A DNA stretch of 64,000 nucleotides from Actinomadura craniellae (GCF_003289645.1 NZ_QLYX01000003.1:434001-498000); one strand, 5' to 3'. Shown: positions 7,331 to 57,878, counted from the first letter of the stretch. Notes: a model not told the origin generated them from the sequence alone. Numbers and translations are program-made.

Positions 7331-8482
7331 TCAGGGCGGCAGGGTTCCGCTGGCGACGGTGTGTAGGTGTTCTCGTGCGTTGCGCATGTCTCGGGAGTTC
7401 GCCCAGGGTGTCGAGGATTTGAGGATGTCGGTGATGTGCTGGTCCAGCCGGGCGGATTCCACCAGCGGGGTGAGGCGGGTCAGGGCGTGGATCTGGTGTG
7501 CTGCTTTGTCGGGGTCGTTGGCGTGTAGTGCGGCTTTGATCTGCTGGGCCAGGTAGAGGGCGCTGAGTTGGGGCATGTGCCCGAAGAGGCGGACCGCTTG
7601 GGCTAGGGACTGGTCGGCTTCCTCGTGCAACTTCAATCTGCCGAGGGCGATGCCCGCGTTGCCCAGGACCATGGCGGCCGAGATCGGGGACAGATCATCG
7701 AGCATGGTGCGTGCTTGGTCCAGCGCTTGGCGGGCTTGGCGTTTGGGGTTTGCGCTAGAGGCTGTGAGCGCTGTGGCGAGCCGGACGCGGAGCCGGACAC
7801 GGTCTTCGTCGGCCAGCCCGCGCAGTTGCAGGCCGTGTTGGGCGTAGGCGGCGGCTCTGAGCGGGTCATGTTGGGCGTTGAAGGTGCACAGGTTCTCGAA
7901 CGCGTGCGCTGCGCTCTCGACGTACCCGGCTTTGCGGGCGAGGTCGAGCCCGAGGGTGGCCACGTGCTCGGCCTGGGTCCGCTGCTGGGCGTCATAAAGC
8001 ACAAGAGAGGCTTTTCGGGCCAGGTCGGCGGAGGCTGCCTGCAACTGCCGGTCGCGTCCCCGTAAAGCCGGTTTGACGGCGTTGGCGTGGCGTAGCGCGG
8101 ACCGGATGAGGGGAATTCCGCCGCCTTCACCGGTCATTTGCTCCAGCCGTCCGGCAAGGGCCCGGACATATTGCGGATCTTGATATGGGCCCGCCTGGGG
8201 TGAAGGGATGAAGGCCACGGATGCGGCGGCGGCGATGAACTCTCTACGGTCTACGGGGTCCACCTCCCCGATGGGGACTATCCGGACTTCCCACCCTACG
8301 CGTTGGAGATAGCCCGATACGCGTCCAATGCCCGGGTCGCGGGTGCCGCGCGAGACGTTGGATATCCACCCTTGGGTGACACGGTCGTCGGGGGTGCTCA
8401 TTTCGCGGGCGAGTTGGTTTTGGCTCCATCCCCGCTGCTCCATGATCAGATTTAAGGCTTGGGGAAGAGTCGGGTTCTCCAT
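7331..8482 (-). CDS. XRE-family regulator with helical-repeat (TPR-like) domain
   Basis: A 383-residue regulator. Residues 5-65 form an XRE helix-turn-helix (LNLIMEQRGWSQNQLARE, then VTQGWISNVSRGTRDPGI). Residues 75-95 carry DRREFIAAAASVAF, a twin-arginine-like stretch commonly seen in this actinobacterial family without implying export. The remainder is alpha-helical repeats rich in Ala/Leu, TPR-like, with a conserved AHAFENLCTFN block. Proteins of this architecture are widespread in Streptomyces and Actinomadura, generally next to ATP-binding anti-sigma-like genes as here. Peptide or small-molecule sensing by the repeat domain is inferred. It is transcribed divergently from the 8590 gene across about 107 bp. 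Confidence 0.8.
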   Translation of the reverse strand: MENPTLPQALNLIMEQRGWSQNQLAREMSTPDDRVTQGWISNVSRGTRDPGIGRVSGYLQRVGWEVRIVPIGEVDPVDRREFIAAAASVAFIPSPQAGPYQDPQYVRALAGRLEQMTGEGGGIPLIRSALRHANAVKPALRGRDRQLQAASADLARKASLVLYDAQQRTQAEHVATLGLDLARKAGYVESAAHAFENLCTFNAQHDPLRAAAYAQHGLQLRGLADEDRVRLRVRLATALTASSANPKRQARQALDQARTMLDDLSPISAAMVLGNAGIALGRLKLHEEADQSLAQAVRLFGHMPQLSALYLAQQIKAALHANDPDKAAHQIHALTRLTPLVESARLDQHITDILKSSTPWANSRDMRNAREHLHTVASGTLPP

Positions 8483-8589
8483 GGCGGGAGAGTAATACGG
8501 GCTGTGTAGGGGGGCTACCGCTTCGCTGCGTTAGGTCGCAAAACTGAGCGTTAACAGCGAGGTGACGTGACGAACAAGGGTGAAGGCGG

Positions 8590-8787
8590 ATGCCGAGCGC
8601 TCCCGAAATACAGATCGACCTGGCGGACTTTACCGCTCAATGGCTGGCAGACCTGCGGACTTCGTTCCCCGGGTGGGCGTTCTTCTACGACGGTGACCGT
8701 ACCTGGACGGCCATGCGGGGACGCACGGCAACGGTGACGGCCACCTCGCCGCTGGTGCTGCGCGCTCATCTGGAGGCACGACGGTGA
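8590..8787 (+). CDS. Small conserved-type hypothetical protein
   Basis: A 65-residue protein (LADFTAQWLADLRTSFPGWAFFYDGDRTWTAMRG) with a compact alpha/beta look and no membrane segment. GAAGGCGG precedes the ATG. Its stop overlaps the start of the next gene in GTGA, so the two are translationally coupled. Short proteins of this kind often precede ATP-binding regulators in Actinomadura-type genomes. Function unknown. Confidence 0.65.
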   Translation: MPSAPEIQIDLADFTAQWLADLRTSFPGWAFFYDGDRTWTAMRGRTATVTATSPLVLRAHLEARR

Positions 8788-9326
8788 AGAGCGAACCGAA
8801 CCCCGGCGGCCATCCCCGCGAATTGGAGGCCACCTTGGACGCCGCGCCGAGTGCTGCGGGACAGGCACGGCGCTTGGTGGTGCAGGCGCTGGCCGAGTGG
8901 GGTCTGTCGGGGGCGTGTGAGGCGATGCGGCTGGTGGTCAGTGAACTGGTCACCAACAGCGTGACCGCACTGGAACAGGCGGTGCCGGACGGGCCGTCGG
9001 TGGTGCGGCTCCGGCTGACGGCCGATCTCGGTCCGGGCGGCTCGCTGGTGACGGTACAGGTATGGGATCAAGCCCCCTGCCTGCCGGTACGACAGTCTCC
9101 CGGAGCGGGTGAGGAAAACGGGCGGGGGCTGCTGCTGGTGGAAGCAGTCTCCCAAGAGTGGGGCTACTACCAGCCCGCGCACCCGCTGACAGACGAAGAG
9201 ACCGGCGCGAAACCATGGCCTGGACCCACCTCATGGCCACACGACAAAGAGACCCCGCCCAGCACAGCGAAGAGCGGAAAAGTGACCTGGGCTGCGGTCA
9301 AAACCGAAGCCGGGCCATGCAGATGA
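8784..9326 (+). CDS. ATP-binding protein, anti-sigma-type HATPase
   Basis: A 180-residue protein of the histidine-kinase-like ATPase family 2 (SpoIIAB/RsbW-like). The N box is visible as AMRLVVSELVTNSVTAL, and the G1 and G2 boxes as VWDQAPCLPV and NGRGLLLVEAVSQEWGYY. No phosphoacceptor or kinase domain is present. The C-terminal 45 residues are low-complexity (KPWPGPTSWPHDKETPPS). It starts with GTG in a GTGA overlap. Its partner sigma factor or anti-anti-sigma is not evident nearby; the following XRE gene is a plausible functional partner. Confidence 0.8.
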   Translation: MKSEPNPGGHPRELEATLDAAPSAAGQARRLVVQALAEWGLSGACEAMRLVVSELVTNSVTALEQAVPDGPSVVRLRLTADLGPGGSLVTVQVWDQAPCLPVRQSPGAGEENGRGLLLVEAVSQEWGYYQPAHPLTDEETGAKPWPGPTSWPHDKETPPSTAKSGKVTWAAVKTEAGPCR

Positions 9327-9376
9327 CCTCGGGTGAGAACGGGACAATGATCGGAAGCGGACTTGAGGACTGCCAG

Positions 9377-9610
9377 ATGCCTCCCACGCCCACAGTGATC
9401 CCCAACGGAGCACGCATCCGGGAACTACGTGAGGCAACCGGGCTGAGCGCCGCCGAACTCGGTGCCAGGCTCCGCCGCCACGTCACCACCATCCAAAACG
9501 CCGAACGCGGCAGACCCGTCTCGCTGATCATCATCGGTCAGCTGTCCCGCGCGCTGGGAGCCCAACCGGCTGAACTCATCGCCGACGACTCCACGCCCGA
9601 ACGCACCTGA
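9377..9610 (+). CDS. Small XRE-family DNA-binding protein
   Basis: A 77-residue protein made almost entirely of an XRE/Cro helix-turn-helix: ARIRELREATGLSAAELGAR, then VTTIQNAERG and LIIIGQLSRALGAQPAEL. The ATG at 9377 is chosen because TTGAGGAC at 9363-9370 stands 6-7 bases before it. The frame is open further upstream, but that stretch overlaps the previous gene and lacks family similarity. Probably a regulator of the ATP-binding/XRE cluster. Confidence 0.75.
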   Translation: MPPTPTVIPNGARIRELREATGLSAAELGARLRRHVTTIQNAERGRPVSLIIIGQLSRALGAQPAELIADDSTPERT

Positions 9611-9795
9611 CTCCCCGGATGAGCGGTGTTCCCCCGTGCTGCTCATCCGGGGTCTTCTCGTCTCCGCACCCACCGGCGACCCGAACACCGGCCAGTCCTG
9701 CGCGACGGCGCCCAACCCCGGCCGACCGGGCCGCTTCGCACCTGGTGAGTCGCCCGCGGCCGGCTCCCGCCCCGGGGCCGGCCGCGGGACGCCTG

Positions 9796-10950
9796 TCAGG
9801 CCGCCGGTTCGTCGGCGGCCAGGATCCGGGTGCGGGACGGGTCCACCGAGACCCAGGTCGCGCCGGGGTCCCCGGCCTCGCCTGACCAGACGCGCCAGTC
9901 CAGGCCGGACGCGGTGAGGTGGTGTTCGGTGTGCGGGCCGGCGAACATGGAGATCCGCAGCTCCGCGGACCACCGGTTGGCCGTGTCGGGCTCGGCGGGG
10001 TGCAGCCGGCCGTCCTCGGGCCGCCAGATCGCCACCGCCGGGTCGCCCTCGGCCAGCCCGGCCCCGGCCGCGCCGGTGACCCGGCCGCAGGCGGTGTCCA
10101 GCACCGCCCGGTCGCCGTCCAGCAGCGCGACCGTGCCGGGGATCTCGTTGGCGACCCCGACGAAGCTCGCCACGTACCGGGTGGCGGGCCGCTCGTAGAT
10201 CTCCCGGGGCGGGCCGAGCTGCTCGACCCGGCCCAGCCGCATCACCGCGATCCGGGTGGCCAGCTCCATCGCCTCGGCCTGGTCATGCGTGACGTACACC
10301 GCGGCGAAGCCGAGCCGCCGCTGCATCGCCAGCAGCTCCACCCGCAGCCGCTCGCGCACCTTGGCGTCCACGTTCGACAGCGGCTCGTCGAAGAGCACCA
10401 GGTCGTCGCCGGCGACCAGGGCCCGGGCCAGCGCCACCCGCTGCTGCTGGCCGCCGCTCATCTCGCCGGGGTACTGGCGGGCCAGTTCGGGGATGCCGAC
10501 CAGTTCCAGCACCTCGGTCACCCGCCCGGCGATCTCGGTCTTGCCGAGCCGGCCGGCCCGCCGGTTCTCCAGCGGGTACGCCACGTTGGCGGCGACCGTC
10601 ATGTGCGGCCAGAGCGCGTACGACTGGAACATCATGCTCAGGCCGCGGCGCTCGGGCGGCACGTCGGTCCGGGCGGCGGTGTCCAGGACGGTCTGCCCGC
10701 CGATCTCGATCCGGCCCGCGTCGGGGTGTTCCAGCCCGGCGATCGACCGCAGCAGCGTGGTCTTGCCGCAGCCGCTGGGGCCGAGCAGCACCAGGAACTC
10801 CCCGGCGGCCACGTCCAGCGTCACCCCGTCGATCGCGGGGGTGATCGCGCCGTCGGCCCGCCGGAAGTGCCGGCGCAGCCCGTCCACCCGGACCACCGGT
10901 CCCGTCGCCGTGGCCTCGTCCTGCTTCTTCTCGTCGTTCATCAGCCTCAT
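9796..10950 (-). CDS. ABC importer ATPase, FbpC/PotA type
   Basis: A 384-residue ATPase that powers the adjacent permease. Walker A is GPSGCGKTT (residues 57-65), the signature is MSGGQQQRVALARAL, Walker B is LVLFDEPLSNVD, and the H-loop is VTHDQAEAM. A C-terminal TOBE-like region of about 120 residues follows, as in Fe(III), polyamine and phosphonate importers. ATG 10950 is preferred, with GAGGCGG 6 bases upstream; TTG 10956 and ATG 10941 are alternatives. Last gene of the operon, 15 bp after the permease stop. Confidence 0.88.
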   Translation of the reverse strand: MRLMNDEKKQDEATATGPVVRVDGLRRHFRRADGAITPAIDGVTLDVAAGEFLVLLGPSGCGKTTLLRSIAGLEHPDAGRIEIGGQTVLDTAARTDVPPERRGLSMMFQSYALWPHMTVAANVAYPLENRRAGRLGKTEIAGRVTEVLELVGIPELARQYPGEMSGGQQQRVALARALVAGDDLVLFDEPLSNVDAKVRERLRVELLAMQRRLGFAAVYVTHDQAEAMELATRIAVMRLGRVEQLGPPREIYERPATRYVASFVGVANEIPGTVALLDGDRAVLDTACGRVTGAAGAGLAEGDPAVAIWRPEDGRLHPAEPDTANRWSAELRISMFAGPHTEHHLTASGLDWRVWSGEAGDPGATWVSVDPSRTRILAADEPAA

Positions 10951-10965
10951 CCGCAACCGCCTCGT

Positions 10966-12708
10966 TCAGGGACGTCCGCCGGGCGGCGGCGGAGTTCCGG
11001 TCCGGGTCCGGCGCCGCGCGTACCACGTCACCGGGACCACGACCAGGGCGGTCGCCCCGGCCAGCATGATCGAAAGGGAGCCGAGCATCGCGTAGTCGCC
11101 GCTGGCGAAGACCTCCAGGATCCGGAAGCCCACCACCTCGTTGCCGGTGCCGGCCAGGATCGCGGACGCGCTGATGTCGCCCGCGATGGTGACGAACAGC
11201 AGCGCCCAGCCGGCCAGCAGCCCGGGCATCATCAGCGGCAGGGTGACCCGCCGGAACGTCCGGCCGGGCCCGGCGCCGCTGAGCCGGGACGCCTCGGTCA
11301 GCTCCGCGCCGATCTGGCTGATCGCCGCGTCCGACGCCGTGGTGGCCTGCGGCATGTGCAGCGACACGTACGCCAGCAGCAGGATCCACAGGGTGCCGCC
11401 CATGTAGAAGGGCGCGCCGCTGAAGGCGAGCACGAACCCGACGGCGATGACCAGGTGCGACAGGGTCGGCGGGAACTTGATCGCCGCGTCGACCAGCAGC
11501 CCGGCGCCCCGGCCCGACCGGCGGACCAGCATCGACACCACCGCGGCGGCGAGCATCCCGATGGTGGCCCCGGCGACGCCCAGCAGCAGGCTGTTGACCA
11601 GCGCCTCCTGGGTGGTGACGTCGCTGAGCGTGCGCCGGAAGGCGTCGAGGTTGAGCGCGCCGAAGTCGACCGAGGAGCTCCAGTACCCGCTCAGCGAGAC
11701 CAGCACCAGGGCGCCCAGCGGCAGGATCGAGGTCAGCGCCAGGTAGCCCAGCACGGCCAGCCGGGCCAGCGGGCGCCAGCGGCCGAGCCGCAGCGGCCGG
11801 GTCCGCGCCCCCTTGCCGCCGATCCCGCTGTTGCGGTCGCTGCGCAGGATGCGCGTCTGCAGGTACCAGACCGCGGTGACGACCAGCATGACGATGAGGT
11901 TCAGGCCGATCGCCACCCCCGTCTCGGGCGGGTAGGTGAACGACAGCAGTTGCACCACCCGGACGGAGAGGATGTCGATGTCGGTCTGGGTGGCCAGGAT
12001 CGTCGGCACGGAGAACAGGCCGAAGCCGAGCCAGACCATGAGCAGTCCCGCCGCGCCCAGGCTGGGCCGGACGGCGGGCAGCGAGATGCGGCGCAGCGTG
12101 GTCAGCGGGCCGGCCCCGCAGATCCGCGACTGCTCCTCCATCCCGGCGTCGGTGTTGCGCAGCCCGGCCGACACGATCATGAACACGAAGGGCACCTGGT
12201 AGATCGTGTAGACGAAGATCAGGCCGTACCAGGAGTGGATGTTGATCGGTCCCTGGTCGAGGTCGATCCCCACGGCGCCCAGCAGCGGGCGCAGCGCCAG
12301 GTTGAGGTAGCCCGACCGCTCCGAGCCCAGCAGCGCCCAGCCGACCGCGCCGGCGATCGGCGGCAGCAGGAAGGGCACCAGCGGCACGATGTCGGTGGCC
12401 AGGCCCAGCCGGGCGTCGGTGCGCTCGTTCAGCCAGGCCAGGCCGGCGCCGACCACCAGCGCGGCCAGGCCGCTGGCGCCGACCACCACCGCGGTGTGCC
12501 ACAGCAGGGTGTCCAGGTCGGGCTGGGCGAGGGTGTCGCGGACCGGGGTCAGGTCGACCCGGCCGTCGGTGATGAACGGCCGGGTCACCACCAGGGCCAG
12601 CGGGTAGACCGCCAGCAGGCCGAGCCCGACCGCCAGGACGGTGGCGAGCAGGGTGAAGGGCGTGAGCCCGGAGGCCCACGCCCGCACCCTCGGTACGTTG
12701 ACGGCCAC
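10966..12708 (-). CDS. ABC importer permease, fused double domain (FbpB type)
   Basis: A 580-residue inner-membrane protein with two binding-protein-dependent transport permease domains in tandem, about 12 predicted membrane segments. EAA-loop motifs are recognisable in both halves: DAGMEEQSRICGAGPLTTLRRI near residue 200 and EASRLSGAGPGRTFRRVTLP near residue 480. The fused arrangement is typical of Fe(III)-type and 2-aminoethylphosphonate-type importers. It starts with GTG three bases after the solute-binding protein stop. Confidence 0.88.
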   Translation of the reverse strand: MAVNVPRVRAWASGLTPFTLLATVLAVGLGLLAVYPLALVVTRPFITDGRVDLTPVRDTLAQPDLDTLLWHTAVVVGASGLAALVVGAGLAWLNERTDARLGLATDIVPLVPFLLPPIAGAVGWALLGSERSGYLNLALRPLLGAVGIDLDQGPINIHSWYGLIFVYTIYQVPFVFMIVSAGLRNTDAGMEEQSRICGAGPLTTLRRISLPAVRPSLGAAGLLMVWLGFGLFSVPTILATQTDIDILSVRVVQLLSFTYPPETGVAIGLNLIVMLVVTAVWYLQTRILRSDRNSGIGGKGARTRPLRLGRWRPLARLAVLGYLALTSILPLGALVLVSLSGYWSSSVDFGALNLDAFRRTLSDVTTQEALVNSLLLGVAGATIGMLAAAVVSMLVRRSGRGAGLLVDAAIKFPPTLSHLVIAVGFVLAFSGAPFYMGGTLWILLLAYVSLHMPQATTASDAAISQIGAELTEASRLSGAGPGRTFRRVTLPLMMPGLLAGWALLFVTIAGDISASAILAGTGNEVVGFRILEVFASGDYAMLGSLSIMLAGATALVVVPVTWYARRRTRTGTPPPPGGRP

Positions 12709-14097: not shown

Positions 14098-15264
14098 ATG
14101 ACGACCACGGACGACGCCCTGACGGCCGACTTCGACCCCTTCGACGAGACGACCCTGCGCGACCCGCACGGCACCTACGCCCGGCTGCGCGCCGCCCGCC
14201 CGATCGCCCGGGGCGCGCGCTGGGGCGGTTTCTGGGCGCTGACCGGCCATGCCGAGGTGTCCGCCGCGGGGACCGCTCCGCACACCTTCAGCAGCGAGTC
14301 CGGCGTGGTGATCCCGATCAACCCGCTGGCCGGGCGGCGGCTGCCGATGCACTTCGACCCGCCCGAGCACACCACCTACCGCCGGATGCTCAACCCCGCC
14401 TTCCACCCCGACCGGGTGACCGCGCTCGACCCCGCCGTGCGGGCGGTGGCCGACCGGCTGCTCGCCCCCCTGCTGGACCGCGGCGCCGGCGAGATGGTCG
14501 CCGAGTACGCCTCACCGCTGGCCTCCCACGCGCTGGCCGCCTTCCTCGGCATGCCGGACGGGTTCGGCACCCGGCTGGAGGAGCAGAGCGTGCGCTTCGA
14601 ACGCGCCCAGGACGCCGGCGACGCCGCCGCGGTCGAGGCCGCCAACACGGAGCTGTACGGCCAGGCCCGCGAGGTGCTCGCCGCCCGCCGCGACGAACCC
14701 GCCGGGGTGGTCGGCGCGCTGCTGGCCGGCGGGCTGGACGACGACGAGGTGCTGGGCGCCGTCCGCCAGATCTTCATCGCCGGGCACATCGCGGTGGCCG
14801 CCGGGCTGGGCAGCGCGATCGGCCACCTGGCCGGCGACCCCGCCTTGCAGGACCGGCTGCGGGCGGAACCCGACCTGGTCCCGGCCGCGGTGGAGGAACT
14901 GCTCCGGCTGCACACCCCCAACCAGGGCTTCGCCCGGACGGCCACCCGCGACGTCGAAATCGCCGGATGCCCGGTGCGTGCGGGCGAGCAGGTGGCGCTC
15001 GTCTACACGGCGGCCAACCGCGACCCCGCGGTCTTCCCCGACCCCGACCGCTTCGAGTTCGGCCGTCCCGCCCGGCACCTGGCCTTCGGGCACGGCGTGC
15101 ACAAGTGCGTCGGGATGGCGCTGGCCCGCCTGGAACTGCGGACCGGCCTCACCGCCCTGCTGGACGCCACCACCGGGTTCGCCCCCGCCGGCGAACCCGA
15201 ACCGCTGCGCTGGCCGGTGCACGGCCCCGCCACCCTCCCGATCCGGCTGGCGGCGGGCCGGTGA
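14098..15264 (+). CDS. Cytochrome P450, first of a tandem pair
   Basis: A 388-residue soluble bacterial P450. The haem loop is HLAFGHGVHKCVG with the thiolate Cys; the ExxR motif is VEELLRLHTP, and the I-helix segment is QIFIAGHIAVAAGLG. The usual acid-alcohol pair (AGxE/D-T) that drives dioxygen activation is absent: Ile-Ala stand in its place. HFDPPEHTTYRRMLNPAF is the standard C-helix region. The ATG is chosen at 14098 after GGCGG; an earlier TTG at 14077 is possible. It overlaps the next P450 by 4 bp. No ferredoxin or reductase lies nearby. Substrate unknown; the lost pair suggests peroxide-driven or substrate-assisted chemistry. Confidence 0.88.
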   Translation: MTTTDDALTADFDPFDETTLRDPHGTYARLRAARPIARGARWGGFWALTGHAEVSAAGTAPHTFSSESGVVIPINPLAGRRLPMHFDPPEHTTYRRMLNPAFHPDRVTALDPAVRAVADRLLAPLLDRGAGEMVAEYASPLASHALAAFLGMPDGFGTRLEEQSVRFERAQDAGDAAAVEAANTELYGQAREVLAARRDEPAGVVGALLAGGLDDDEVLGAVRQIFIAGHIAVAAGLGSAIGHLAGDPALQDRLRAEPDLVPAAVEELLRLHTPNQGFARTATRDVEIAGCPVRAGEQVALVYTAANRDPAVFPDPDRFEFGRPARHLAFGHGVHKCVGMALARLELRTGLTALLDATTGFAPAGEPEPLRWPVHGPATLPIRLAAGR

Positions 15265-17906: not shown

Positions 17907-20900
17907 ATGCCACGCCGGGCGAGACGGAACCGAGGAGCGGGCCGCATCGAGCCGCCGGCCGAGCCGATGGTCAACCGAACGCTGGAGCTGGACCTGCTCA
18001 AGGAGCATCTGGCCCGGGTGATACGGGGCGAGCCGGGCCACGCGGTGCTGCTGCTCGGGGAGTCCGGCGTCGGCAAGTCACGCCTTGCGGGTGAGGCGGT
18101 GGCCGAGGCCGATCGGCTGGGGACCTTCGCCATCACGGCGCAGTGCCTCGGCCACGGCGCGGAGCCGCTGCTGCCCATCCGGGACGCGATGGCGATCCAC
18201 CTGGGCCGCAACTCCGAGAGCATCCGCCGGACGCTGACCGGGGCCGCGCCGAGGCTGCTGGACGCGATCCCGTTCATCGGGACGTTCCTCGGCAAGCTCG
18301 GCGAGACCTGGGTGGAAGGCCGGCAACCTCGCGGCGCCTCCACCGAAGGCGTGTACGAGGCGCTGGCCGGGGTGCTGATCGGCATCTCGGAACGGCACGG
18401 CCTGCTCCTGCTGGTCGAGGACCTGCACCAGGCCGACCAGGACACACTGTTCTTCCTGAACTACCTGCTGCGCAAGATCCGAGGCCACCGGGTGCTGGCC
18501 GTGTTCACCATGCAAGAAGAGCGGTTGCGGGACGTCCCCCAGCTGGCCGACCTGGTGGCGCAGTGGACCGCCGAGGGCTACGGCGTGCTGACCGTGCTCC
18601 CACTGGAGCGGGCGCACGTCGGCGAGTACGTGCAGATGGCTGCGGCGCTGGGTGAGCCGCCCGATGACAAACTGGTCGACCGGCTGTTCGGGCTGACCGG
18701 CGGGAACCCGTTCTTCCTGAAGGAGACGCTCCAACTGCTTTCCGCTCAGGATCCTCCGGCGGGCACGGAACCGGTCTCCATCCCACCACGGGTCGACGCC
18801 GTGCTGCGGCGGCGGCTGGGCCGGGCCGACACCCAGGTCATGCGCTTCCTGGAGGCCGCCGCGGTCGTCGTGGAGACGGCGCAGGAGATCGAGCCCGTCG
18901 CGCACGTGATGGACGCCGACCTGGCCGCCGCGATCCAGGCCCTGACGGCTGCCTGTGAACTGCGCCTGATGCGGGAAGGCGCCAACGGCGAGATCGGTTT
19001 CATCCACGCGTTGATGCAGCGCGCGGTCTACCAGGACATGGGGGCCAACTCCCGGCGTTTCCTGCACTCCCGGGCGGCGGAGTGGTTCGAGCGCGAGGGG
19101 CGCTTCGCGTCGGCCGCGTTTCATTTCGAACGGGCCGAGAACATCGAGAGCATGGTGCGGGCCGCGCTGGAGGCAGCGTCCCACGCCGAACAGGCCGGGA
19201 TGTACCACTCGGCGCTCGGGTTCTACCAGAAGGCACGGCCCTACGTGGAAATCGAACAGATCGGCCCACCGCTCGGCCGGGCCCTCATCACCATGGGGAA
19301 CTGGGACCAGGCACAGGAACTGATCGACCAGTTACCCGAGGACGACGGAGGGGTCCGACTGCTCCGCGCGGAGCTGCGGTTCGTGCGCGGCGACTTCCAC
19401 GGCGCCCGGGTAGAGGCCCGGGCGGCGCTGGACACCCGTACTGCCGAGGCGCTGGTGAAACTCGCGGACATCGAGCTCTACCTGGGCGAATTTCCCGCCG
19501 CCCAGGAACACGTCCGCCGGGCGCTCGACACGATCGGTCCCGGCCTGGTCCCGTTGCGGGCCCGTTGCCTGGGCATGCTGGGCGCCACCGAGTTCTTCGC
19601 GGGTGACGTCGACGAGGGCAGAACGCGTTTCGAGGAGGCGCTCCGATTGCTGCTCGACGAGCCGGAGAACGAACTGGACGTGCTCGCATACGCGACTCTG
19701 CTCGGCAACCTGGGCAACGTCGCCGAGGCGCAGGGAGACTGGGCGGCGGCCGAACAGCGCCATGCGGAGGCGCTGCGGCTACGCCGGGAGGTGGCCGACG
19801 CCCGGGGTGCACTGCACAGCCTGCATGCCCTTGGCCGGTGCCGGATCGGGCTCGGCGACGTCAACGGGGGCCATGCGCTGTACGCCGAGACCGAGCGCCT
19901 TGCCGCGGATCTCGGCGAGGCGCTGGAAAGGGCGAAGCTCGCGCACACCCGGGGAGAACTGAGGCTGCGTGCGGGCGACCCCGTGGCGGCCGCCGAACTG
20001 GTGGGCTCCGCGCTCGAGGTGTTCTCCCGGACCCGGACGCACTACGACGTCACACACGCGCGGGTCACCCTCGCCGCCGCGACCCTGGCAACCGGCCGGG
20101 AACGGGCCGGGGTCGAGCTCGCCGCCGCTGCCCGGGCCTCGATCGAGTCCAAGCGGTACGGGCTGCTGCGCCGCATCCGCCCGGAGACGGCGTACCCGCT
20201 CGCGGACCGTGTTGCAGGTGCGCTCACCGCCTACGCCTGCGGTGACGCGCTCGGTCTCCCGTACGAGGGTTCCCCGCCGTCGGAGGCCGCCGCGGAGCAG
20301 ATCGAACGGCTGCGCCCCCGGGAGGGCTGGGCGCCGGGCGCCACTTCGGACGACACCGCGCTCACCATGCTGGTGGCCCGGCATCTGGTCGAGCGGGAGG
20401 GGAACGGCGCCGCGCACGCGTTCCTGGAACTGCTGGCGGCACAGGATCCGCCGGTTCCCGGGATGGGCCCGTCGACGACCGCGGCGATCGAACACTTCCG
20501 CCGTACCGGGCGGCCGCCCGAGTCGGGCGGGACTTCCAACGGGGCTCCGATGCGGGCGCTTCCGGTCGGTTGGGCCACTCCGCTGGACGCCCCCGACCGG
20601 CGGCGGCAACTCGCCCTGGAGATGACCCGGGCGACCCACCCCGACCCGGACGCGGCCTGCGCGGCCGGCGTGGTCGCCGCTTGTGCGTCCTGGGCTTTGG
20701 AGGGAGCGTCACCGCGGCTGCTGCTGGAGGTGGCGGTCGAGGAGGAACGGGCCGCCGCGCGGGAGTACGGGGCCGGTGACCGGCTGGCGGGCCTGCTCGC
20801 CGAACTGGCCGCCGGGCGGTGGCGGTCTCCGGATCAGGGCATCGGCCTGGACCCGGGAGAGACCGTCACGGCCGCACTGTCCTGCGTGCTGGAGGCCCGC

Positions 20901-21098
20901 GACCTGCGTGATGGCCTGCTCCGGGCGGTGCGGCTCGGTGGCGACACCGACACCGTCGCCGCCATCACCGGCGGGCTGCTCGGCTCCCGGTTGACCCGGG
21001 CGGAGGTGTTCGCGGTGCTGCCCTGGCACGTGGACGTGCGGCTGCCCGAGGTCGTGGAGGTCTCGGCCGGGCTTGCCGCAGTGCGGGCGGAGGGTTGA
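17907..21098 (+). CDS. STAND-type ATPase / TPR / ADP-ribosylglycohydrolase fusion
   Basis: A 1063-residue three-part protein. An AAA/STAND ATPase has Walker A GESGVGKS at residues 51-58 and a Walker B-like LLLLVEDLHQAD near 170. About 400 residues of TPR-like helical repeats follow (AEQRHAEALRLRREVADARG and similar). From about residue 763 there is an ADP-ribosylglycohydrolase (ARH/DraG) domain: VAGALTAYACGDALGLPYEG, the metal site SDDT near 813, NGAPMR, and GGDTDT near 1011, all intact. The ARH domain should remove ADP-ribose from proteins, nucleic acids or small molecules. The ATPase-repeat part looks like a ligand-gated switch, as in SARP/LuxR-type and NLR-like sensors. CGGAGG at 17895-17900 sets the ATG; upstream codons are not protein-like. 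The 3' end overlaps the SIR2-like gene by 134 bp. Confidence 0.88.
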   Translation: MPRRARRNRGAGRIEPPAEPMVNRTLELDLLKEHLARVIRGEPGHAVLLLGESGVGKSRLAGEAVAEADRLGTFAITAQCLGHGAEPLLPIRDAMAIHLGRNSESIRRTLTGAAPRLLDAIPFIGTFLGKLGETWVEGRQPRGASTEGVYEALAGVLIGISERHGLLLLVEDLHQADQDTLFFLNYLLRKIRGHRVLAVFTMQEERLRDVPQLADLVAQWTAEGYGVLTVLPLERAHVGEYVQMAAALGEPPDDKLVDRLFGLTGGNPFFLKETLQLLSAQDPPAGTEPVSIPPRVDAVLRRRLGRADTQVMRFLEAAAVVVETAQEIEPVAHVMDADLAAAIQALTAACELRLMREGANGEIGFIHALMQRAVYQDMGANSRRFLHSRAAEWFEREGRFASAAFHFERAENIESMVRAALEAASHAEQAGMYHSALGFYQKARPYVEIEQIGPPLGRALITMGNWDQAQELIDQLPEDDGGVRLLRAELRFVRGDFHGARVEARAALDTRTAEALVKLADIELYLGEFPAAQEHVRRALDTIGPGLVPLRARCLGMLGATEFFAGDVDEGRTRFEEALRLLLDEPENELDVLAYATLLGNLGNVAEAQGDWAAAEQRHAEALRLRREVADARGALHSLHALGRCRIGLGDVNGGHALYAETERLAADLGEALERAKLAHTRGELRLRAGDPVAAAELVGSALEVFSRTRTHYDVTHARVTLAAATLATGRERAGVELAAAARASIESKRYGLLRRIRPETAYPLADRVAGALTAYACGDALGLPYEGSPPSEAAAEQIERLRPREGWAPGATSDDTALTMLVARHLVEREGNGAAHAFLELLAAQDPPVPGMGPSTTAAIEHFRRTGRPPESGGTSNGAPMRALPVGWATPLDAPDRRRQLALEMTRATHPDPDAACAAGVVAACASWALEGASPRLLLEVAVEEERAAAREYGAGDRLAGLLAELAAGRWRSPDQGIGLDPGETVTAALSCVLEARDLRDGLLRAVRLGGDTDTVAAITGGLLGSRLTRAEVFAVLPWHVDVRLPEVVEVSAGLAAVRAEG

Positions 21099-22608
21099 GC
21101 CGAGCCCGCACGGCCGCGATCTCCGCCAGCCCGGCCGGGTCGTCCAGATGGGCGTAGACCCGGGCGGCCCAGTCGAGTTCGCGGAGCATCCGCGCGGAGA
21201 CGGGGCGGCGGAGCAGCAGGGCCAACTGCACGTGCCGGACGCACAGGGACGCGTGCGTCCGCCCGACCCCGGGGATCCGTGTCTCGGCTCGGGCGAGGGC
21301 ACGGCGCACCAGGACGGTGAGGTATCGGCCGAGCGCCCACCGCCACCACCGGCGGCGCGGGCCGCGCAGCAGCATCGCGGTGGCCGCGGCTTCCACCGCC
21401 CTGACCCGGTCCCCGCCCGCCAAGGAGATCAGGGCCGAGGCGGGGGCGGAGTGCGCGAGCCCGGCCAGCGCGTAGGCGCGCACCTGTGCGGGGGCGCCCG
21501 GGGTGCGGGCGGCTCGGAGCCGGAGCGCCCGGGCCTCGGCGCGGTCCCCAGGAGCATCCCGGCGATCCAGGGCCGTGGCGAGCCTGGCCTTGATGCGGGC
21601 GGTCGGGATCCGCGTGCTCAACCGGCGGAACACTTCGATCGCCTCGTCGTGACGGCCGGAGTCCGACAGCATCCACGCGCATGCCTGCGCCGGAAGCCCG
21701 GTGGGCAGCCGGCGCCAGGCCTCGAACGCCGTCGCGTATCCGGCCGTGGCGGCGTGGACCCGCGGCCAGGGCGGCAGGTCCTCCGCGAGCGTGGCCCGCA
21801 GCCCGCTCTCCGGATCGGCCAGCACCGGTTGTTCCGGGCTGATCTCCCGGAGCCGGCCGGCCAGATGGGGATCGACGCGTTGGGCGACCCACGCGAAGGC
21901 TCCCGGGCGCAGGCGGGACACCAGTGCGTCCGCACAGTCGAGGTCGGCACCGGAGTAGCCGGTGACCAGGACGAACCCGCTGCCGGTGAGCGAGTCGAGC
22001 ACCGCGAGGCGGGCCGCGCCCAGATGGACGGACTCGGCGAGGTCCATCGGGGGGCGGGCCGGTAGCAGCATCTCCGGAGAACCCGCTGAGCCACGCAGTT
22101 TGACCAGCAGCGCCCCGTTCGTCCGGCCGAGGTCGCGCGGGCGGGTGACGACGGTCAGCGGTGGTGCGTCGCGTGGGAACCGTTTCCGCCAGGCGGCCAG
22201 AGCGGGGAAGAAGCACCCGGGTGTTCCGGGGGGCAGGTCGGCTCGGCCGGAGAGCAGCGCATAAGCGCGCTCGATGCCGTCGTCGAAGTTGAGCGTGACA
22301 TGCATGCCGGACGTCGCGAGCCGCCAGGCGGACAGCAGGTGCGCCGCACCTGGCACCACCAGGCCGAAGCATGACAGTACCGCCGCGGCGTGGCCGTCGC
22401 CGGGTTCCGCGCAGGCGTGCAACCGGGCGATCACGTTCCAGTGGCGGGTCCGCAGCGTCGTGCGCCCCGCCGCGGTGACCACGCCCGGGGCGACGGCGTC
22501 GGCGGCGTCCAGGCATACGTCGATCAGATCGTGATGGAACGCGGCGCCGAGAGGCAGGGCCGCGGGGGGATCGGCGGAAAGACCGGCGCCACTGAACACG
22601 TTGAACAC
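20965..22608 (-). CDS. SIR2-like protein with C-terminal helical repeats
   Basis: About 547 residues. The N-terminal 250 carry SIR2_2-type signatures: FNVFSGAGLSADPPAALPLG (NAD-binding GAG-S), VTLNFDDGIERA (equivalent to TxNxD), LLVKLRGSAGS (equivalent to KLHG) and FVLVTGYSGADLD. The catalytic His of KLHG is Arg here. The rest is Arg/Ala-rich helical repeats. In known defence proteins (ThsA, DSR, SIR2-Argonaute pairs) such domains hydrolyse NAD on phage infection. The start is uncertain: GTG 22608 keeps the whole domain; TTG 22641 is possible. The C-terminal 45 residues overlap the STAND gene in antisense and are low-complexity. Confidence 0.72.
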   Translation of the reverse strand: MFNVFSGAGLSADPPAALPLGAAFHHDLIDVCLDAADAVAPGVVTAAGRTTLRTRHWNVIARLHACAEPGDGHAAAVLSCFGLVVPGAAHLLSAWRLATSGMHVTLNFDDGIERAYALLSGRADLPPGTPGCFFPALAAWRKRFPRDAPPLTVVTRPRDLGRTNGALLVKLRGSAGSPEMLLPARPPMDLAESVHLGAARLAVLDSLTGSGFVLVTGYSGADLDCADALVSRLRPGAFAWVAQRVDPHLAGRLREISPEQPVLADPESGLRATLAEDLPPWPRVHAATAGYATAFEAWRRLPTGLPAQACAWMLSDSGRHDEAIEVFRRLSTRIPTARIKARLATALDRRDAPGDRAEARALRLRAARTPGAPAQVRAYALAGLAHSAPASALISLAGGDRVRAVEAAATAMLLRGPRRRWWRWALGRYLTVLVRRALARAETRIPGVGRTHASLCVRHVQLALLLRRPVSARMLRELDWAARVYAHLDDPAGLAEIAAVRARLNPPPALRQARPRPPRPRAAARPRARAAPRTPPPGSTGSRAARR

Positions 22609-22706
22609 GGGAAGGACCCCCGCTCCGGATTCGCTGCCCAAGATTCTGCGCCCGGCCACCGGCCCTGACAATGCCGGACGGCCCCGCGATCCTGTTGCGG
22701 GCGTGT

Positions 22707-23339
22707 TCACAGCCGCTGGCTGATCGCCACCCAGCGCTGGCCGATGGTGATGGAGGAGAGCAAGGCCACGGCGATCGTCGCCAGGAGCAACTGGTCGACG
22801 ACCAAGCCGAGGATCAGAATTCTTTTGCGGTTCGTGAGCGGGGCGAGGCCCATTTGAAAAATGCGATTCAGTGCGTCGTGGGTCATCTCTCGGGTCGCGA
22901 TGGCCGCTTCGCCCTTGGCTTTGACATAGCTCACGCAGAGTGCGGCGCCGCAGGCCGCGACCGCCCATACGGCGGCGCCGCGGGGGCCGGTCATGGTGAG
23001 GTGGTAGGCGATGCCGCAGAAGAGCACCACTTCGGACACCCGGTCCGCGGTGGCGTCCAGCAGCATCCCGCGGGCACTCGCCCGCCCTTGTAGGCGTGCG
23101 AGTTCCCCATCAAGGAGATCGGCGGGCAGGGACACGGCCAGGAGCAGCGCACCTGGGAGCAGGTGGCCGAGCGCCACCAGGCCGGCGGCCAGGGCCTGGA
23201 TCCCGACACCGGCGGCGGTCACCGTGTTCGCGGTGATCCTCCCCCGGCCGATCCGGTCGATCACGACGGCCAGTCGTAATATCACACGGCGCATGCGTGT
23301 CGTCCCGCGATCGTTCATCGCGTTTCTAGTGAATTCCAT
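22707..23339 (-). CDS. CDP-alcohol phosphatidyltransferase family protein
   Basis: An integral membrane enzyme (about 210 residues) that transfers a phospho-alcohol from a CDP-linked donor. The complete signature DxxDGxxARx8Gx3Dx3D is visible: DLLDGELAR, eight residues, GMLLDATAD. Four to six hydrophobic helices surround it. ATG 23339 has AGGA 7 bases upstream; an earlier ATG at 23411 would extend the protein by 24 residues but leaves only 8 bp to the divergent gene and has no ribosome site. Third-position GC is lower than in the neighbours, a hint of transfer. The substrate is unknown; the neighbouring nucleotidyltransferase could supply it. Confidence 0.82.
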   Translation of the reverse strand: MEFTRNAMNDRGTTRMRRVILRLAVVIDRIGRGRITANTVTAAGVGIQALAAGLVALGHLLPGALLLAVSLPADLLDGELARLQGRASARGMLLDATADRVSEVVLFCGIAYHLTMTGPRGAAVWAVAACGAALCVSYVKAKGEAAIATREMTHDALNRIFQMGLAPLTNRKRILILGLVVDQLLLATIAVALLSSITIGQRWVAISQRL

Positions 23340-23419
23340 GGCAACATCCTGGATCGCCACGGATCTCGCTTGTGCGTAATCCGACACAGATATTTCCGGG
23401 GTTTCTCTCATACTGAGGC

Positions 23420-24025
23420 ATGGGACTGCGTCTGGGGATTATGGGCGGCACTTTCGATCCTATTCACAACGCACATTTACTGAAAGCTGATGTGGTGGCG
23501 CGCAGCCTCGGGCTCGATGCGGTCGTTTTCATTCCCGCGGGCCAGCCCTGGCATAAGAACATGGCCGAGGTCTCCTCCGCTGCGGACCGCTACGCCATGA
23601 CGGTCATCGCGACGGCCACGGACCCCAGATTTTCGGTGAGCCGGGTGGAAATCGACCGGGGCGGCCCCACCTACACGGTGGACACCTTCCAGGAGTTACG
23701 GCGGGTCCTCGGCGAGCAGGTCGAACTGTTCCTCATCGCGGGCGCCGACGTGTTGAAGGGAATCCTCACCTGGCGGGAGGCTCGTCTGCTGCCCGAACTG
23801 ACCAATTTCGTCTTCTGCTCCCGGCCGGGACACCGGTTGCTCGCCGTCGGCCTGCCGCCGGAACGGGTCACCCTGCTGCACGTCCCGGAGAGGGGCATCT
23901 CGTCGACCTCGATCAGGAGGCGGGTCGGTTGCGGCGAGCCGATCCGCCATCTGGTGCCGGCCGCCGTGGCCGACTACATCGAATGCCGCGGTCTCTATCG
24001 GCCGGACCGCCTTCCTGTGACGTGA
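23420..24025 (+). CDS. NadD-type nicotinate mononucleotide adenylyltransferase paralogue
   Basis: A 201-residue nucleotidyltransferase of the NadD family, which joins ATP and nicotinate mononucleotide to give deamido-NAD. MGGTFDPIHNAH (residues 8-19) is the nucleotide-binding HxxH motif, AGQPWHKN and DRYAMTVIATATDPRFSVSR match NadD of actinobacteria closely, GGPTYTVDT follows, and GISSTSIRRRV near residue 160 is the second ATP-binding motif. It stands outside the usual obg-proBA-nadD-rsfS context, so a second copy is likely. TGAGG is only one base before the ATG; leaderless initiation is possible. The first 100 bases are noticeably AT-richer than the surroundings. Confidence 0.85.
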   Translation: MGLRLGIMGGTFDPIHNAHLLKADVVARSLGLDAVVFIPAGQPWHKNMAEVSSAADRYAMTVIATATDPRFSVSRVEIDRGGPTYTVDTFQELRRVLGEQVELFLIAGADVLKGILTWREARLLPELTNFVFCSRPGHRLLAVGLPPERVTLLHVPERGISSTSIRRRVGCGEPIRHLVPAAVADYIECRGLYRPDRLPVT

Positions 24026-25566: not shown

Positions 25567-26586
25567 TCAGGAGGCGCGGTCGCGTTCGGCCGCGAGCTGC
25601 AGGGCGACGTCGATGATCATGTCCTCCTGGCCGCCGACGTACCCGGCCTCGCCGACCTTCTGCAGGATCTCGTGGACGGGGACCTCGTAGCGTTCCGCCG
25701 CGCGCTCGGCGTGCAGGAGGAAGCTGGAGTAGACACCGGCGTAGCCCTGGGTGATGGCGCCCCGGTCGGCGAACGGCAGCCGGTGCAGGAACGGCTTGAC
25801 CACGTCCTCGGCCGCCGCCATGACGCCCTGGATGTCCACCCCGGTCCGGATGCCGAGGCGGTCGAAGGTCGCCGCCACCACCTCGGTGGGGGCGTTGCCC
25901 GCCCCGGCGCCCAGCGCGCACAGCGCACCGTCGATCTGGCGGGCGCCGTTCTGCGCCGCCAGGACGGAGTTGGCCACCCCCAGCGACAGGTTCTGGTGCC
26001 CGTGGAAGCCGACCTCGGCCTGGTGGCCGATCTCCTGCACCAGGGCCGAGACCCGGGCCTGGGCGTCCCCGAGCACCAGGGCCCCGGCGGAGTCCACCAC
26101 GTAGACGCACTGGGCGCCGCCGTCCACCATGATGCGCGCCTGGCGGGCCAGCTCCGCCGGGCCGACCCGGTGCGACAGCATGAGGAACCCGACCGTTTCC
26201 ATGCCCAGATCGCGGGCGGCGGCGAAGTGCTGGAGCGAGACGTCGGCCTCGGTGCAGTGGGTGGCGATGCGGGCCACCGAGGCGCCCACCCCATGCGCCT
26301 TCCTCAGGTCCTCCACGGTGCCGAGACCGGGCAGCAGCAGCACCGCGATCCGCGCCCGGGTCGCCTCGTCCACGGCGGCGGAGACCAGCTTGATCTCGTC
26401 TTCGAGGGAGAACCCGTAGTTGAAGGACGACCCGCCGAGCCCGTCGCCGTGGGTGACCTCGATGACCTCCACCCCGGCCGAGTCGAGCGCGTACACCACC
26501 CCGCGCACCTGCTCCTCGGTGAAGCGGTGGGCCATCGCGTGGGAGCCGTCGCGCAGCGTGGAGTCCGTGATCCGGACGTCGTTCAT
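25567..26586 (-). CDS. mhpE: 4-hydroxy-2-oxovalerate aldolase
   Basis: A 339-residue class II pyruvate aldolase of the DmpG/MhpE/HsaF family, splitting 4-hydroxy-2-oxoacids into pyruvate and an aldehyde. [10 protein letters not shown] near the N-terminus holds the metal and substrate residues; [13 protein letters not shown] and [15 protein letters not shown] (metal histidines) are intact. It starts in an ATGA overlap with the acetaldehyde dehydrogenase gene. The two enzymes form a channelling complex in known systems. Last gene of the three-gene operon. Confidence 0.95.
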
Positions 26587-27512
26587 GCCGTGTCCCTTTC
26601 GCCCCTGCCGCCCGTGCCGTCCCCGCCGTCTCGCCCGGCCGCCAGCCGCTCGCCGACCTGGGCCGCGGTGGCGGTCATGATGTCGAGGTTGCCGGCCCAG
26701 GGCGGCAGGTAGTCGCCGTTGCCCTTGACCTCCAGGAACACCGCGACGCGGGCGTGCCCGTTCCAGATGTCGCGGGGGCCGTCGAACTGCGGTTCGGCGC
26801 GCAGCGTGTAGCCGGGCACGTACGTCGCCACCCGCTCGACCATGGCGTGGACGGAGGCGGCGATCGCCTCGGTGTCGGCGTCGGCGGGCAGGGCGCAGTA
26901 CACGGTGTCCCGCATGATCATCGGCGGGTCCACCGGATTGAGGATGATGATCGCCTTCCCGCGCCCGGCCCCGCCGACCTGCTCGATCGCCCGGGCGGTG
27001 GTCTGGGTGAACTCGTCGATGTTGGCCCGGGTGCCGGGCCCGGCCGACCGGGACGCGATCGAGGCGACGATCTCGGCGTAGGGCACCGGCACCACCGAGG
27101 AGACCGCGTGCACGATCGGGATCGTCGCCTGCCCGCCGCAGGTGATCATGTTGAGGTTCGGGACGTCGGCCAGGTCGTCCAGGTTGACCGGCGGGCACAC
27201 CAGCGGCCCGACCGCGGCCGGGGTCAGGTCGAGGGCCTTGATCCCGGCGGCCTCGTAGCGGGGCGCGTTGGCCAGGTGGGCGCGCGCCGAGGTCGCCTCG
27301 AACACCAGGTCCGGCAGCGGGTCCTGGGCCAGCAGCCAGTCCACCCCCTCGGCGGAGGCGGGCACCCCCATCTCCCGGGCCCGCGCCAGCCCCTCGGAGC
27401 CGGGGTCCACCCCCACCATGGAGTGGACCTGGAGGTGCTCGCTGCGCAGCAACTTCACCAGCAGGTCGGTCCCGATGTTCCCGGGCCCGACGATGGCGGC
27501 GGTGAGACTCAC
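26583..27512 (-). CDS. mhpF: Acylating acetaldehyde dehydrogenase
   Basis: A 309-residue NAD(+)- and CoA-dependent aldehyde dehydrogenase of the DmpF/MhpF/HsaG family, converting the aldehyde from the aldolase to acyl-Co[14 protein letters not shown] near the start is the dinucleotide-binding motif; the catalytic Cys lies in [15 protein letters not shown] near residue 130. The C-terminal 18 residues are a Gly/Arg-rich tail. The GTG start is in a GTGA overlap with the hydratase. Substrate could be acetaldehyde or propanal, the latter if this belongs to sterol breakdown. Confidence 0.95.
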
Positions 27513-28294
27513 GAGCCCCCCTTGAAGTTCGCGGTGACGGTGCCGAGCCCGGCGAACTCGGCGGTGAGGACGTCCCCGGCGGAGATCGGCTCGGCCGAGG
27601 TGATCGAGCCGGGCAGCACCACGTGCCCCGCCTCCAGCGACACGCCGCGCTCGCCCAGCGTGTTGGCCAGCCAGACCAGCGCGTTCAGCGGCGAGCCCAG
27701 CGCCGCCCCGGCGGCACCCGTGTTGATCAGTTCGCCGTTGCGGTACAGCAAGCAGCCCGCCAACCGCAGGTCCACGGCGTCCAGCGGGGCGGGCCGGGTG
27801 CCGAGCACCACCCCGCCGCTGGAGGCGTTGTCGGCGACGGTGTCCACCAGCGAGATCTTCCAGTCGCGGATCCGCGAGTCGATGATCTCCAGTGCGGGGA
27901 GCACGAAGTCCACCGCGGCGGCGGCCTCCGCGGCCGTGACACCGGGCCCGGCCAGCGGCCGGCCGAGCACGAACGCGATCTCCGGCTCGACCCGGGGCTG
28001 GAGGAACGCGCCGGCGTCGATCGGGGCGCTGTCCAGGTGGAACATGGTGTCGAGCAGGACCCCGAAGTCCGGCTGGTCCACGTTCATCTGCCGCTGCATG
28101 GCGGCCGAGGTCAGCCCGACCTTGTGGCCCTTGATCCGGGCGCCCTTGGCCCGGAACTCCTCGATCTGCGCGAGCTGGATCGCGTACGCGTCGCCCAGCG
28201 TCAGCCCGGCGTACACCGTCGTCAGCGGCTCGACGGGCTCGCCCGAGGCGTACGCGCCGAGCAGGCCGTCGGCGGCCCGGCGGATGTCGTCCAC
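27509..28294 (-). CDS. mhpD: 2-hydroxypenta-2,4-dienoate hydratase
   Basis: A 261-residue hydratase of the MhpD/BphH/HsaE family, adding water to 2-oxo-4-pentenoate-type products of meta-cleavage. [27 protein letters not shown] and [19 protein letters not shown] are typical, including the metal-binding Glu pair. GGAGGAGG lies 5 bases before the GTG at 28294, so this start is preferred over GTG 28321. First gene of the operon hydratase, dehydrogenase, aldolase. No ring-cleavage dioxygenase is in the window, so only the lower pathway is present here. Confidence 0.94.
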
Positions 28295-40470: not shown

Positions 40471-40851
40471 TCAGACGGTAAAGAGCCGCAGCTTGACGCC
40501 GATGGCGTTGGCAAGGTGGTTGAGATCTTCGGGATCGCTGGTGACCGCCGCAGCCTGGTACTGGACGGCGGTGGTGACGACGATCGCGTCGACGACGTCC
40601 GCAGTCCCGGATGCCGCGCAGGCAACACCGGCGGCGCGGCCGGTGCGCTCGTCGTCGGAGCGAATGTCACAGCCCCTGAGCACGCGCGAGATCTGGTGCT
40701 GTGGTCCGCCGCGCCATGCCTGAGCGAGGACCACCACTGGAACGACCGGCCGGATGCGGGCGGCGATCAGCTCGTTGTGCAGGGCGAGGAAGTCCGGGTT
40801 TCGCCGTTCAGCGGCGAGCAGGGCGCCAGTGTCGTAGACGATCGTGCGCAC
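40471..40851 (-). CDS. PIN-domain toxin (VapC type)
   Basis: A 126-residue PIN nuclease. The first acid lies in VRTIVYDTGALLAAERRN; central LAQAWRGG replaces the usual (L/I)xExxxG acid position, so the catalytic set may be altered; the last acids lie in TADVVDAIVVTTA and VTSDPEDLNHLAN. GTG 40851 overlaps the antitoxin stop by one base (TAGTG). It forms a toxin-antitoxin pair with the preceding gene; RNA cleavage is the family activity. Confidence 0.82.
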   Translation of the reverse strand: MRTIVYDTGALLAAERRNPDFLALHNELIAARIRPVVPVVVLAQAWRGGPQHQISRVLRGCDIRSDDERTGRAAGVACAASGTADVVDAIVVTTAVQYQAAAVTSDPEDLNHLANAIGVKLRLFTV

Positions 40852-41138
40852 TACCCGGCCGCTCGCCACGGCTCGTCGTCGAGCAGCCCGGCTTCCAGCA
40901 GGAACTCGCGGGCACGCTGCCGGGACTCCTCGGGGAGCTTCCCGTGCTCGCTCTCGTACTCGGCCACCAACTCCCGGGCTGCGGCCCGGCCCGCAGCGTG
41001 GAGCGCGGCGATGCGGGCCTTTTCCACGGCTGCTTCGGCCAGCCACGCGGAGACCGGTTTGCCCTCTTCCGCGGCCGCCGCCTTGATCGTCTCCTCGACC
41101 TCCGGTGGCACCGAGATCGACAGCTTCCGTGCGGTCAT
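40851..41138 (-). CDS. Antitoxin of a PIN module
   Basis: A 95-residue protein starting with a ribbon-helix-helix segment (MTARKLSISVPPEVEETIKA, GKPVSAWLAEAAVEKAR) followed by a helical toxin-binding part. Gene order antitoxin then toxin, and one-base coupling, are typical of VapBC. The segment 41139-41388 upstream is a gene-free promoter region with TAGGAACGTGTTCCTA, a perfect palindrome at 41159-41174 that may be its operator. Confidence 0.82.
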   Translation of the reverse strand: MTARKLSISVPPEVEETIKAAAAEEGKPVSAWLAEAAVEKARIAALHAAGRAAARELVAEYESEHGKLPEESRQRAREFLLEAGLLDDEPWRAAG

Positions 41139-41158
41139 GGCTCCACCATAGCGTGCGG

Positions 41159-41174
41159 TAGGAACGTGTTCCTA
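41159..41174. promoter_or_regulatory. Palindrome upstream of the antitoxin
   Basis: TAGGAACGTGTTCCTA: arms TAGGAAC and GTTCCTA around GT, about 21 bp upstream of the antitoxin start on the minus strand. Position and symmetry fit autoregulation by a ribbon-helix-helix antitoxin. Confidence 0.6.
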
Positions 41175-41388
41175 CCGTTTTCGCAGTCGCCCAGGCGGCC
41201 ACGCCTGACGGGAGGCGTCAGGTGGTTCCCGTCTCCGCCTACCTGATCGTGGCACCTGGCCGACGGCATCGGCTGACCAGGCCGGTCTTTCGAGGTGACG
41301 AAGCGGTAGCGGATCGCTCGTCCTCGGTACGCTGAACGGACGCTTTCCCTACGATGTGGAGCCGGTCGTGCGGGAGGAGTCACCTGAC

Positions 41389-57611: not shown

Positions 57612-57878
57612 ATGACCGCACCGGATGAGATCACTCAGCGGGACCTCCGGGGGAGATCCGGGGAGATCATGGACGCCGTCGAGCACGGCGAGGCCTTCAT
57701 CGTCACCCGCAACGGAACCCCGATCGGGGAACTGATCCCGCTGCGCCGCCGCCGGACGGTGACGCGCGAGCAGTTTGCGGCCATGTCCGCGAACGCACCG
57801 GTCATCGACGCCGACCGGTTCCGCGCCGACCTGGACTCGATCACCGACACCGAGCTGTCAGATCCCTATGCGCGGTGA
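57612..57878 (+). CDS. Phd/YefM-type antitoxin
   Basis: An 88-residue antitoxin. ITQRDLRGRSGEIMDAVEHG and EAFIVTRNGTPIGELIPL are the Phd/YefM DNA-binding fold; the C-terminal acidic tail (DADRFRADLDSITDTELSD) should wrap the toxin. ATG 57612 is used; GGATGGGTGG is a weak ribosome site. The toxin gene starts 11 bp before its stop. Confidence 0.9.
   Translation: MTAPDEITQRDLRGRSGEIMDAVEHGEAFIVTRNGTPIGELIPLRRRRTVTREQFAAMSANAPVIDADRFRADLDSITDTELSDPYAR

Follow-up and report, generated by a model that had tools for sequence, protein, structure and literature searches.

A divergent STAND-TPR-ADP-ribosylglycohydrolase, SIR2-like and NadD gene cluster in Actinomadura craniellae as a candidate NAD-centred conflict module

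The 64,000-nucleotide stretch of the Actinomadura craniellae genome analysed here (NZ_QLYX01000003.1, 434001 to 498000; hereafter the window) carries at 17.9-24.0 kb a block of four genes, which encode a fusion of a STAND NTPase, TPR repeats and an ADP-ribosylglycohydrolase (ARH), a SIR2-like protein, a CDP-alcohol phosphotransferase and an accessory copy of the nicotinate-nucleotide adenylyltransferase NadD. We give about an even chance to the reading that this cluster from a 7.5-Mb actinomycete genome represents a divergent form of a so far undescribed conflict module, probably anti-phage and centred on nicotinamide adenine dinucleotide (NAD), with STAND-TPR-ARH, SIR2 and a dedicated NadD as its core; for this module we infer a defence function, a sensing step and what ARH and NadD do. 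The four adjacent families had been named in a first-pass annotation of the DNA, and Pfam, NCBIfam, motifs and codon use bear out all of them, with coding-like codon use in each open reading frame (ORF) by codon-position analysis. The features of the block are the following.

17907 or 17967..21098, plus strand: STAND (AAA_16) NTPase-TPR-ARH fusion, 1043-1063 amino acids (Pfam, motifs)
20241..21098, plus strand: predicted ARH (DraG-type) catalytic domain inside the fusion (PF03747, E 5e-47)
20965..22710 or 22608, minus strand: SIR2-like protein with a helical, TPR-like C-terminal half, 547-581 amino acids (codon-position GC, SIR2 motifs)
22093..22095, minus strand: codon CGT (Arg) at the place of the catalytic His of SIR2 NADases, KLHG to KLRG (motif order)
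22707..23339, minus strand, ORF open to an ATG at 23411: CDP-alcohol phosphotransferase, phosphatidylinositol-phosphate (PIP)-synthase-like (Pfam, E 1e-8)
23340..23419: intergenic region between the divergent CDP-alcohol phosphotransferase and NadD genes, 80 bp, 54% GC
23420..24025, plus strand: accessory NadD, a nicotinate-nucleotide adenylyltransferase paralogue (NF000840)

The accessory NadD scores 240 bits against NF000840, whose equivalog cut-off is 150, and carries the nucleotidyltransferase motifs GTFDPIHNxH and ISST..R, a score and motif set that predict a nicotinate mononucleotide adenylyltransferase. It could be taken for the housekeeping enzyme, a candidate that we rejected: contig C19 of the same genome holds a second NadD with 58% identity, and the accessory protein falls in a separate clade. 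When 297 genomes were searched, a second, window-like NadD was found in four others of the order sample (G616, G544, G557 and G640; Actinomadura alba, Microtetraspora glauca, Sphaerisporangium corydalis and Rhizohabitans arisaemae), with identities to the window protein of 68, 66, 65 and 62%. These four and the window copy group together in a clade of their own (support 100/100), separate from the 21 housekeeping NadDs compared, and share the signature HN[VA]HLLKA, PAGxPW, GADV and FCSR (HNAHLLKA and PAGQPW in the window). Accessory and housekeeping NadDs are thus of one enzyme family with the same nucleotidyltransferase motifs, but differ in clade, in sequence (55-58% identity) and in reading HN[VA]H instead of HHGH.

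Each accessory NadD found in the 297 genomes adjoins a SIR2 gene, which in turn overlaps the gene of a STAND-ARH protein, so that the trio is adjacent in all five genomes, the window included. The order is constant in the four relatives: STAND-TPR-ARH (1177 amino acids), SIR2 (274-297 amino acids), whose start codon shares the sequence GTGA with the STAND stop codon, and then a convergent NadD. A genome of another family, G306, has TPR-ARH, SIR2 and a glycosyltransferase on a 4-kb contig, past whose end any NadD would fall. The conservation as neighbours that the first-pass annotation had proposed as a check therefore holds for STAND-ARH, SIR2 and NadD, whereas the full four-gene set never recurs. 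L119 and L121, the stand-alone ARHs nearest to the module, are without an adjoining SIR2 or NadD, and a search of phage records and viral contigs revealed no viral carriers. A GT4-like glycosyltransferase gene missing from the window adjoins STAND-TPR-ARH in the four relatives, where it is divergent, and in G306. These genes lie at the following positions.

L061, 3583..4698, minus strand: GT4-like glycosyltransferase
L062, 14168..15295, plus strand: GT4-like glycosyltransferase
L063, 3672..4784, minus strand: GT4-like glycosyltransferase
L064, 3962..5128, minus strand: GT4-like glycosyltransferase
L071, 2508..3809, minus strand: GT4-like glycosyltransferase

The fusion protein matches AAA_16 (E 1e-15), TPR_12 (E 4e-17) and ADP_ribosyl_GH (E 5e-47) in Pfam. 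Its AAA_16/STAND domain has an intact Walker A (GESGVGKS, at 18057) and Walker B (LLLVED) and is classed on these motifs as a STAND NTPase. The ARH domain, whose closest PDB match is the Thermus thermophilus ARH 2cwc (E 5e-17), keeps GDALG, SDDT, NGAPMR, ATH and GGDTDT intact; the metal motifs are invariant among 12 homologues, and the (S/T)DD, GGDxDT and TH motifs predict an enzyme of the ARH/DraG type. The TPR-ARH part is 39% identical to that of the relatives over 629 columns, whereas the NTPase half is not alignable with theirs. The relatives' STAND gene carries a different NTPase, weakly AAA_16, and this half, at residues 17-553, is also found in proteins of cyanobacterial plasmids that have no ARH (Acaryochloris and Gloeothece; plasmid matches H2 and H3; L091), which indicates an NTPase common to other architectures.

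The SIR2 proteins of the relatives match Pfam SIR2_2 (E 1e-7 to 1e-8) and, at E 1e-50 to 1e-55, the PADLOC profile PDC-S65, with weaker matches to ThsA and Aga-SIR2; the catalytic Asn and His are kept in all four and in G306. For an AlphaFold2 (AF2) model of the relatives' SIR2 (pLDDT 74), the best 50 PDB matches listed by Foldseek are ThsA, SPARSA, KomC, DSR2 and SIR2/HerA, and the modelled fold resembles that of anti-phage SIR2 NADases. Among the listed matches are DSR2 H171A and KomBC H146N, mutants of the catalytic-His kind of residue that are catalytically dead. Defence-type genes adjoin three of the four relatives' loci, namely DISARM DrmA/DrmB, HEC-01A/B with a DUF262 protein, and an HNH nuclease. 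Taken together with the fold and profile matches, these neighbours support an immune role with SIR2 as the NAD-consuming effector.

The likeness to Thoeris ThsA, DSR2, Kongming KomC and SPARSA thus lies in the SIR2 fold, the catalytic Asn and His of the relatives' protein and the leading structural matches. It differs from those systems in that neither ThsB nor pAgo, neither a tail-tube sensor nor KomA/KomB was seen; the partners of SIR2 are STAND-TPR-ARH and a dedicated NadD, and the window SIR2 is without the His. Similarly, the relatives' SIR2 domain matches the N-terminal part of PDC-S65, but the match stops near profile position 287 of 592 and about 300 C-terminal residues are missing; the window SIR2 has no match to PDC-S65. 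Avs-type STAND NTPases and MalT/LuxR-type STAND regulators likewise join a P-loop NTPase, a TPR scaffold and an enzymatic domain in one chain, but the effector domain here would be a C-terminal ARH, and the PADLOC Avs models give no match. The phage NAD reconstitution pathways NARP1/2 couple NAD re-synthesis to NAD depletion, as the module may, whereas in the module the gene for re-synthesis is a bacterial one in linkage with the gene of the consumer. As the first-pass annotation had held, no described system with a STAND-ARH, SIR2 and NadD set was found in PADLOC or in the literature searched, which was mostly open access, and an earlier description is possible; nor did a search of PMC7159879 show such a gene set.

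The SIR2-like protein of the window shows four SIR2 motifs in the usual order (GAGLS at 7, TLNFD at 105, VKLRG at 169 and TGYSG, as GYSGADLD, at 216), is longer than the relatives' SIR2 and lies on the strand opposite to theirs. Its gene shares the last 134 bp with the convergent ARH gene, and its start may be the GTG at 22710, in a GTGA overlap with the CDP-alcohol phosphotransferase stop (22710..22707), or the GTG at 22608; from the former it follows that the two genes may be co-translated. The AF2 model is uninformative (pLDDT 45), no close relative was confirmed in a GTDB r220 scan, plasmids, the PDB or 60 relatives, and among 395 genomes of the class there were marginal matches alone. The nearest of these marginal homologues is a SIR2-TPR protein of 627 amino acids (L027, 127..2010, minus strand) with HIHES near the KLHG place.

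Several observations weigh against the reading as an NAD-centred conflict module. The Pfam SIR2_2 match of the window protein is at E 0.19, and no profile confidently assigns it to SIR2. The catalytic Asn is kept and the catalytic His has become Arg, a site located by motif order and by a low-probability hhalign pairing of KLRG with KLHG. The change makes NAD cleavage by this protein doubtful, and with it the NAD consumption that the first-pass annotation had proposed for this genome; the NADase arm is probably impaired, inactive or purely NAD/ADP-ribose-binding. In addition, the strand order of the four genes, + - - +, means that they do not form one operon. The module is also rare: the four relatives are all the species that a GTDB-r220 scan returned with a STAND-ARH alignment, mostly from one family, in a scan that used two N-terminal peptide patterns and missed distant members. 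Finally, there is another STAND-TPR-ARH family, in Nonomuraea, whose gene overlaps that of a PfkB kinase and is without SIR2 and NadD (one exception, G600), so that STAND-ARH need not go with the NAD theme. The Nonomuraea loci are as follows.

L090 (N. gerenzanensis), 7785..12180: STAND-TPR-ARH/PfkB
L122, L124, L125 and L127: STAND-TPR-ARH/PfkB
L126: STAND-TPR-ARH/PfkB, the two genes reading through as a single ORF

Some loci of this family adjoin mobile elements with RepSA and an integrase; the N. gerenzanensis copy, next to a pSAM2-type RepSA and an integrase, is on such an element. The differences between window and relatives resemble module shuffling around a fixed theme of TPR-ARH, NadD and SIR2, and the window cluster is, on this comparison, a rearranged, perhaps impaired, divergent copy of the recurring module. 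The fourth gene is peculiar to it. The CDP-alcohol phosphotransferase has the complete DxxDGxxAR..GxxxDxxxD motif and is nearest to PIP synthases, at 79 bits under an NCBIfam equivalog cut-off of 170. A search of 150 genomes from the order gave no orthologue, the best match having 35% identity, and the gene is not at the four relatives' loci; its place in the module, as the first-pass annotation had it, is thus not supported. The idea of a nucleotidyltransferase/phosphotransferase pathway formed with NadD was rejected as well, since the other accessory NadDs have no such gene alongside and the order sample holds no orthologue. The annotation's broader proposal of an NAD-centred conflict or defence module is carried by the recurring trio and its defence-type neighbours, and gives way at the phosphotransferase and at NAD consumption in the window genome.

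For the module as we read it, the STAND-TPR protein would sense an infection or stress cue and switch through ATP binding, and the ARH domain would set or reset the response by stripping ADP-ribose from a substrate, be it a protein, a nucleic acid or a small ADP-ribosyl conjugate. SIR2 would act as the NAD-consuming effector, and the accessory low-GC NadD would restore NAD or deamido-NAD, making depletion survivable or reversible; NadD could instead make an unusual dinucleotide. In the window copy, a longer orphan protein that reads Arg in place of the catalytic His would have replaced SIR2 or arisen from it by divergence, and the CDP-alcohol phosphotransferase would have been inserted. A more specific version, which we put forward tentatively and think rather unlikely as a whole, is an immune module with an NAD consumer and its own NAD synthesis, gated by STAND-ARH, in which depletion is dosed and reversible and not suicidal, the consumer having lost catalysis in some lineages to become an NAD/ADP-ribose sensor. 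NAD depletion is a common endpoint in bacterial immunity, and NAD re-synthesis is known chiefly as a phage counter-move. A host module in which a SIR2 consumer is linked with its own NadD would, if true, make the survivability of NAD-based immunity directly testable with one short cluster. The STAND-TPR-ARH fusion is itself a candidate for an ADP-ribosyl hydrolase gated by ATP, and it recurs with either of two sets of partners, SIR2 with NadD and the glycosyltransferase, or PfkB.

The same genes could form a reversible ADP-ribosylation cassette after the logic of DraT/DraG or SirTM-macro, in which SIR2 writes ADP-ribose and the STAND-gated ARH erases it, with NAD supplied by NadD. The eraser and writer to be expected are there in ARH and SIR2, NAD binding could persist in a SIR2 that has lost the His, and ADP-ribosylglycohydrolase (ARG) enzymes remove sirtuin products including O-acyl-ADP-ribose (PMC9503650). 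We nevertheless consider this unlikely, as the relatives' SIR2 resembles defence NADases in fold and profile and not deacylase or ADP-ribosylating sirtuins, and no macro, GcvH or LplA genes were noticed adjoining the module in the relatives' ORF lists. No macro domain as in SirTM-macro was noticed in those lists or in the scanned window genes, profile scans having covered part of the ORFs.

A metabolic or regulatory cluster with no immune role, serving NAD salvage or the modification of sugar or lipid head groups through the CDP-alcohol phosphotransferase or the relatives' glycosyltransferase, would fit the metabolic families present (NadD, CDP-alcohol phosphotransferase, GT4 and PfkB) and the catabolic flanks of the window. 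This appears quite unlikely given the patchy distribution, the module swapping, the defence-type neighbours in three of four relatives and a SIR2 of the PDC-S65/ThsA type.

Distinctly improbable, in our judgement, is that the ARH removes phage-made ADP-ribose marks with the other genes as accessories. Such counter-ADP-ribosylation by ARG-centric systems has been proposed in actinobacteria (PMC9503650, section 3.8), and the window fusion shares their ADP-ribosylglycohydrolase core, its catalytic motifs intact on an ATP-driven TPR scaffold. Those systems, however, are defined by having no linked sirtuin or ADP-ribosyltransferase and often include Nudix/WYL regulators and phosphatases; here SIR2 adjoins the ARH gene in five of five module genomes and is its closest partner, with the GTGA overlap in the relatives, and no Nudix/WYL regulators or phosphatases were noticed at the module. 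Chance neighbourhood of unrelated genes, to which the restriction of the full set to the source genome and its mixed strands might point, is very improbable when members of three of these families lie together in each of five genomes with a monophyletic accessory NadD, though it may hold for the CDP-alcohol phosphotransferase gene alone.

In composition the block stands apart from its surroundings. The GC content at third codon positions (GC3) of the four genes is 0.81-0.88, against a median of 0.964 in 48 other window genes, which is consistent with acquisition; the block thus fits the acquired island of lower GC that the first-pass annotation had suggested. The absence of housekeeping neighbours noted there is roughly right, the flanking genes being catabolic, P450, PaaX and YCII genes. 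A meta-cleavage-like catabolic trio (hydratase, acetaldehyde dehydrogenase and 4-hydroxy-2-oxovalerate aldolase, with a Pfam check on the aldolase alone) lies near the module at 25567..28294 on the minus strand. An ARAGORN call of tRNA-Cys at 15183..15257 (minus strand) falls inside a P450 gene of the opposite strand and is probably spurious. Low GC3 is also found at 40471..42048 and 57612..58287, which hold toxin-antitoxin-like pairs (RHH with PIN; Phd/YefM with PIN) and a putative Uma2 nuclease.

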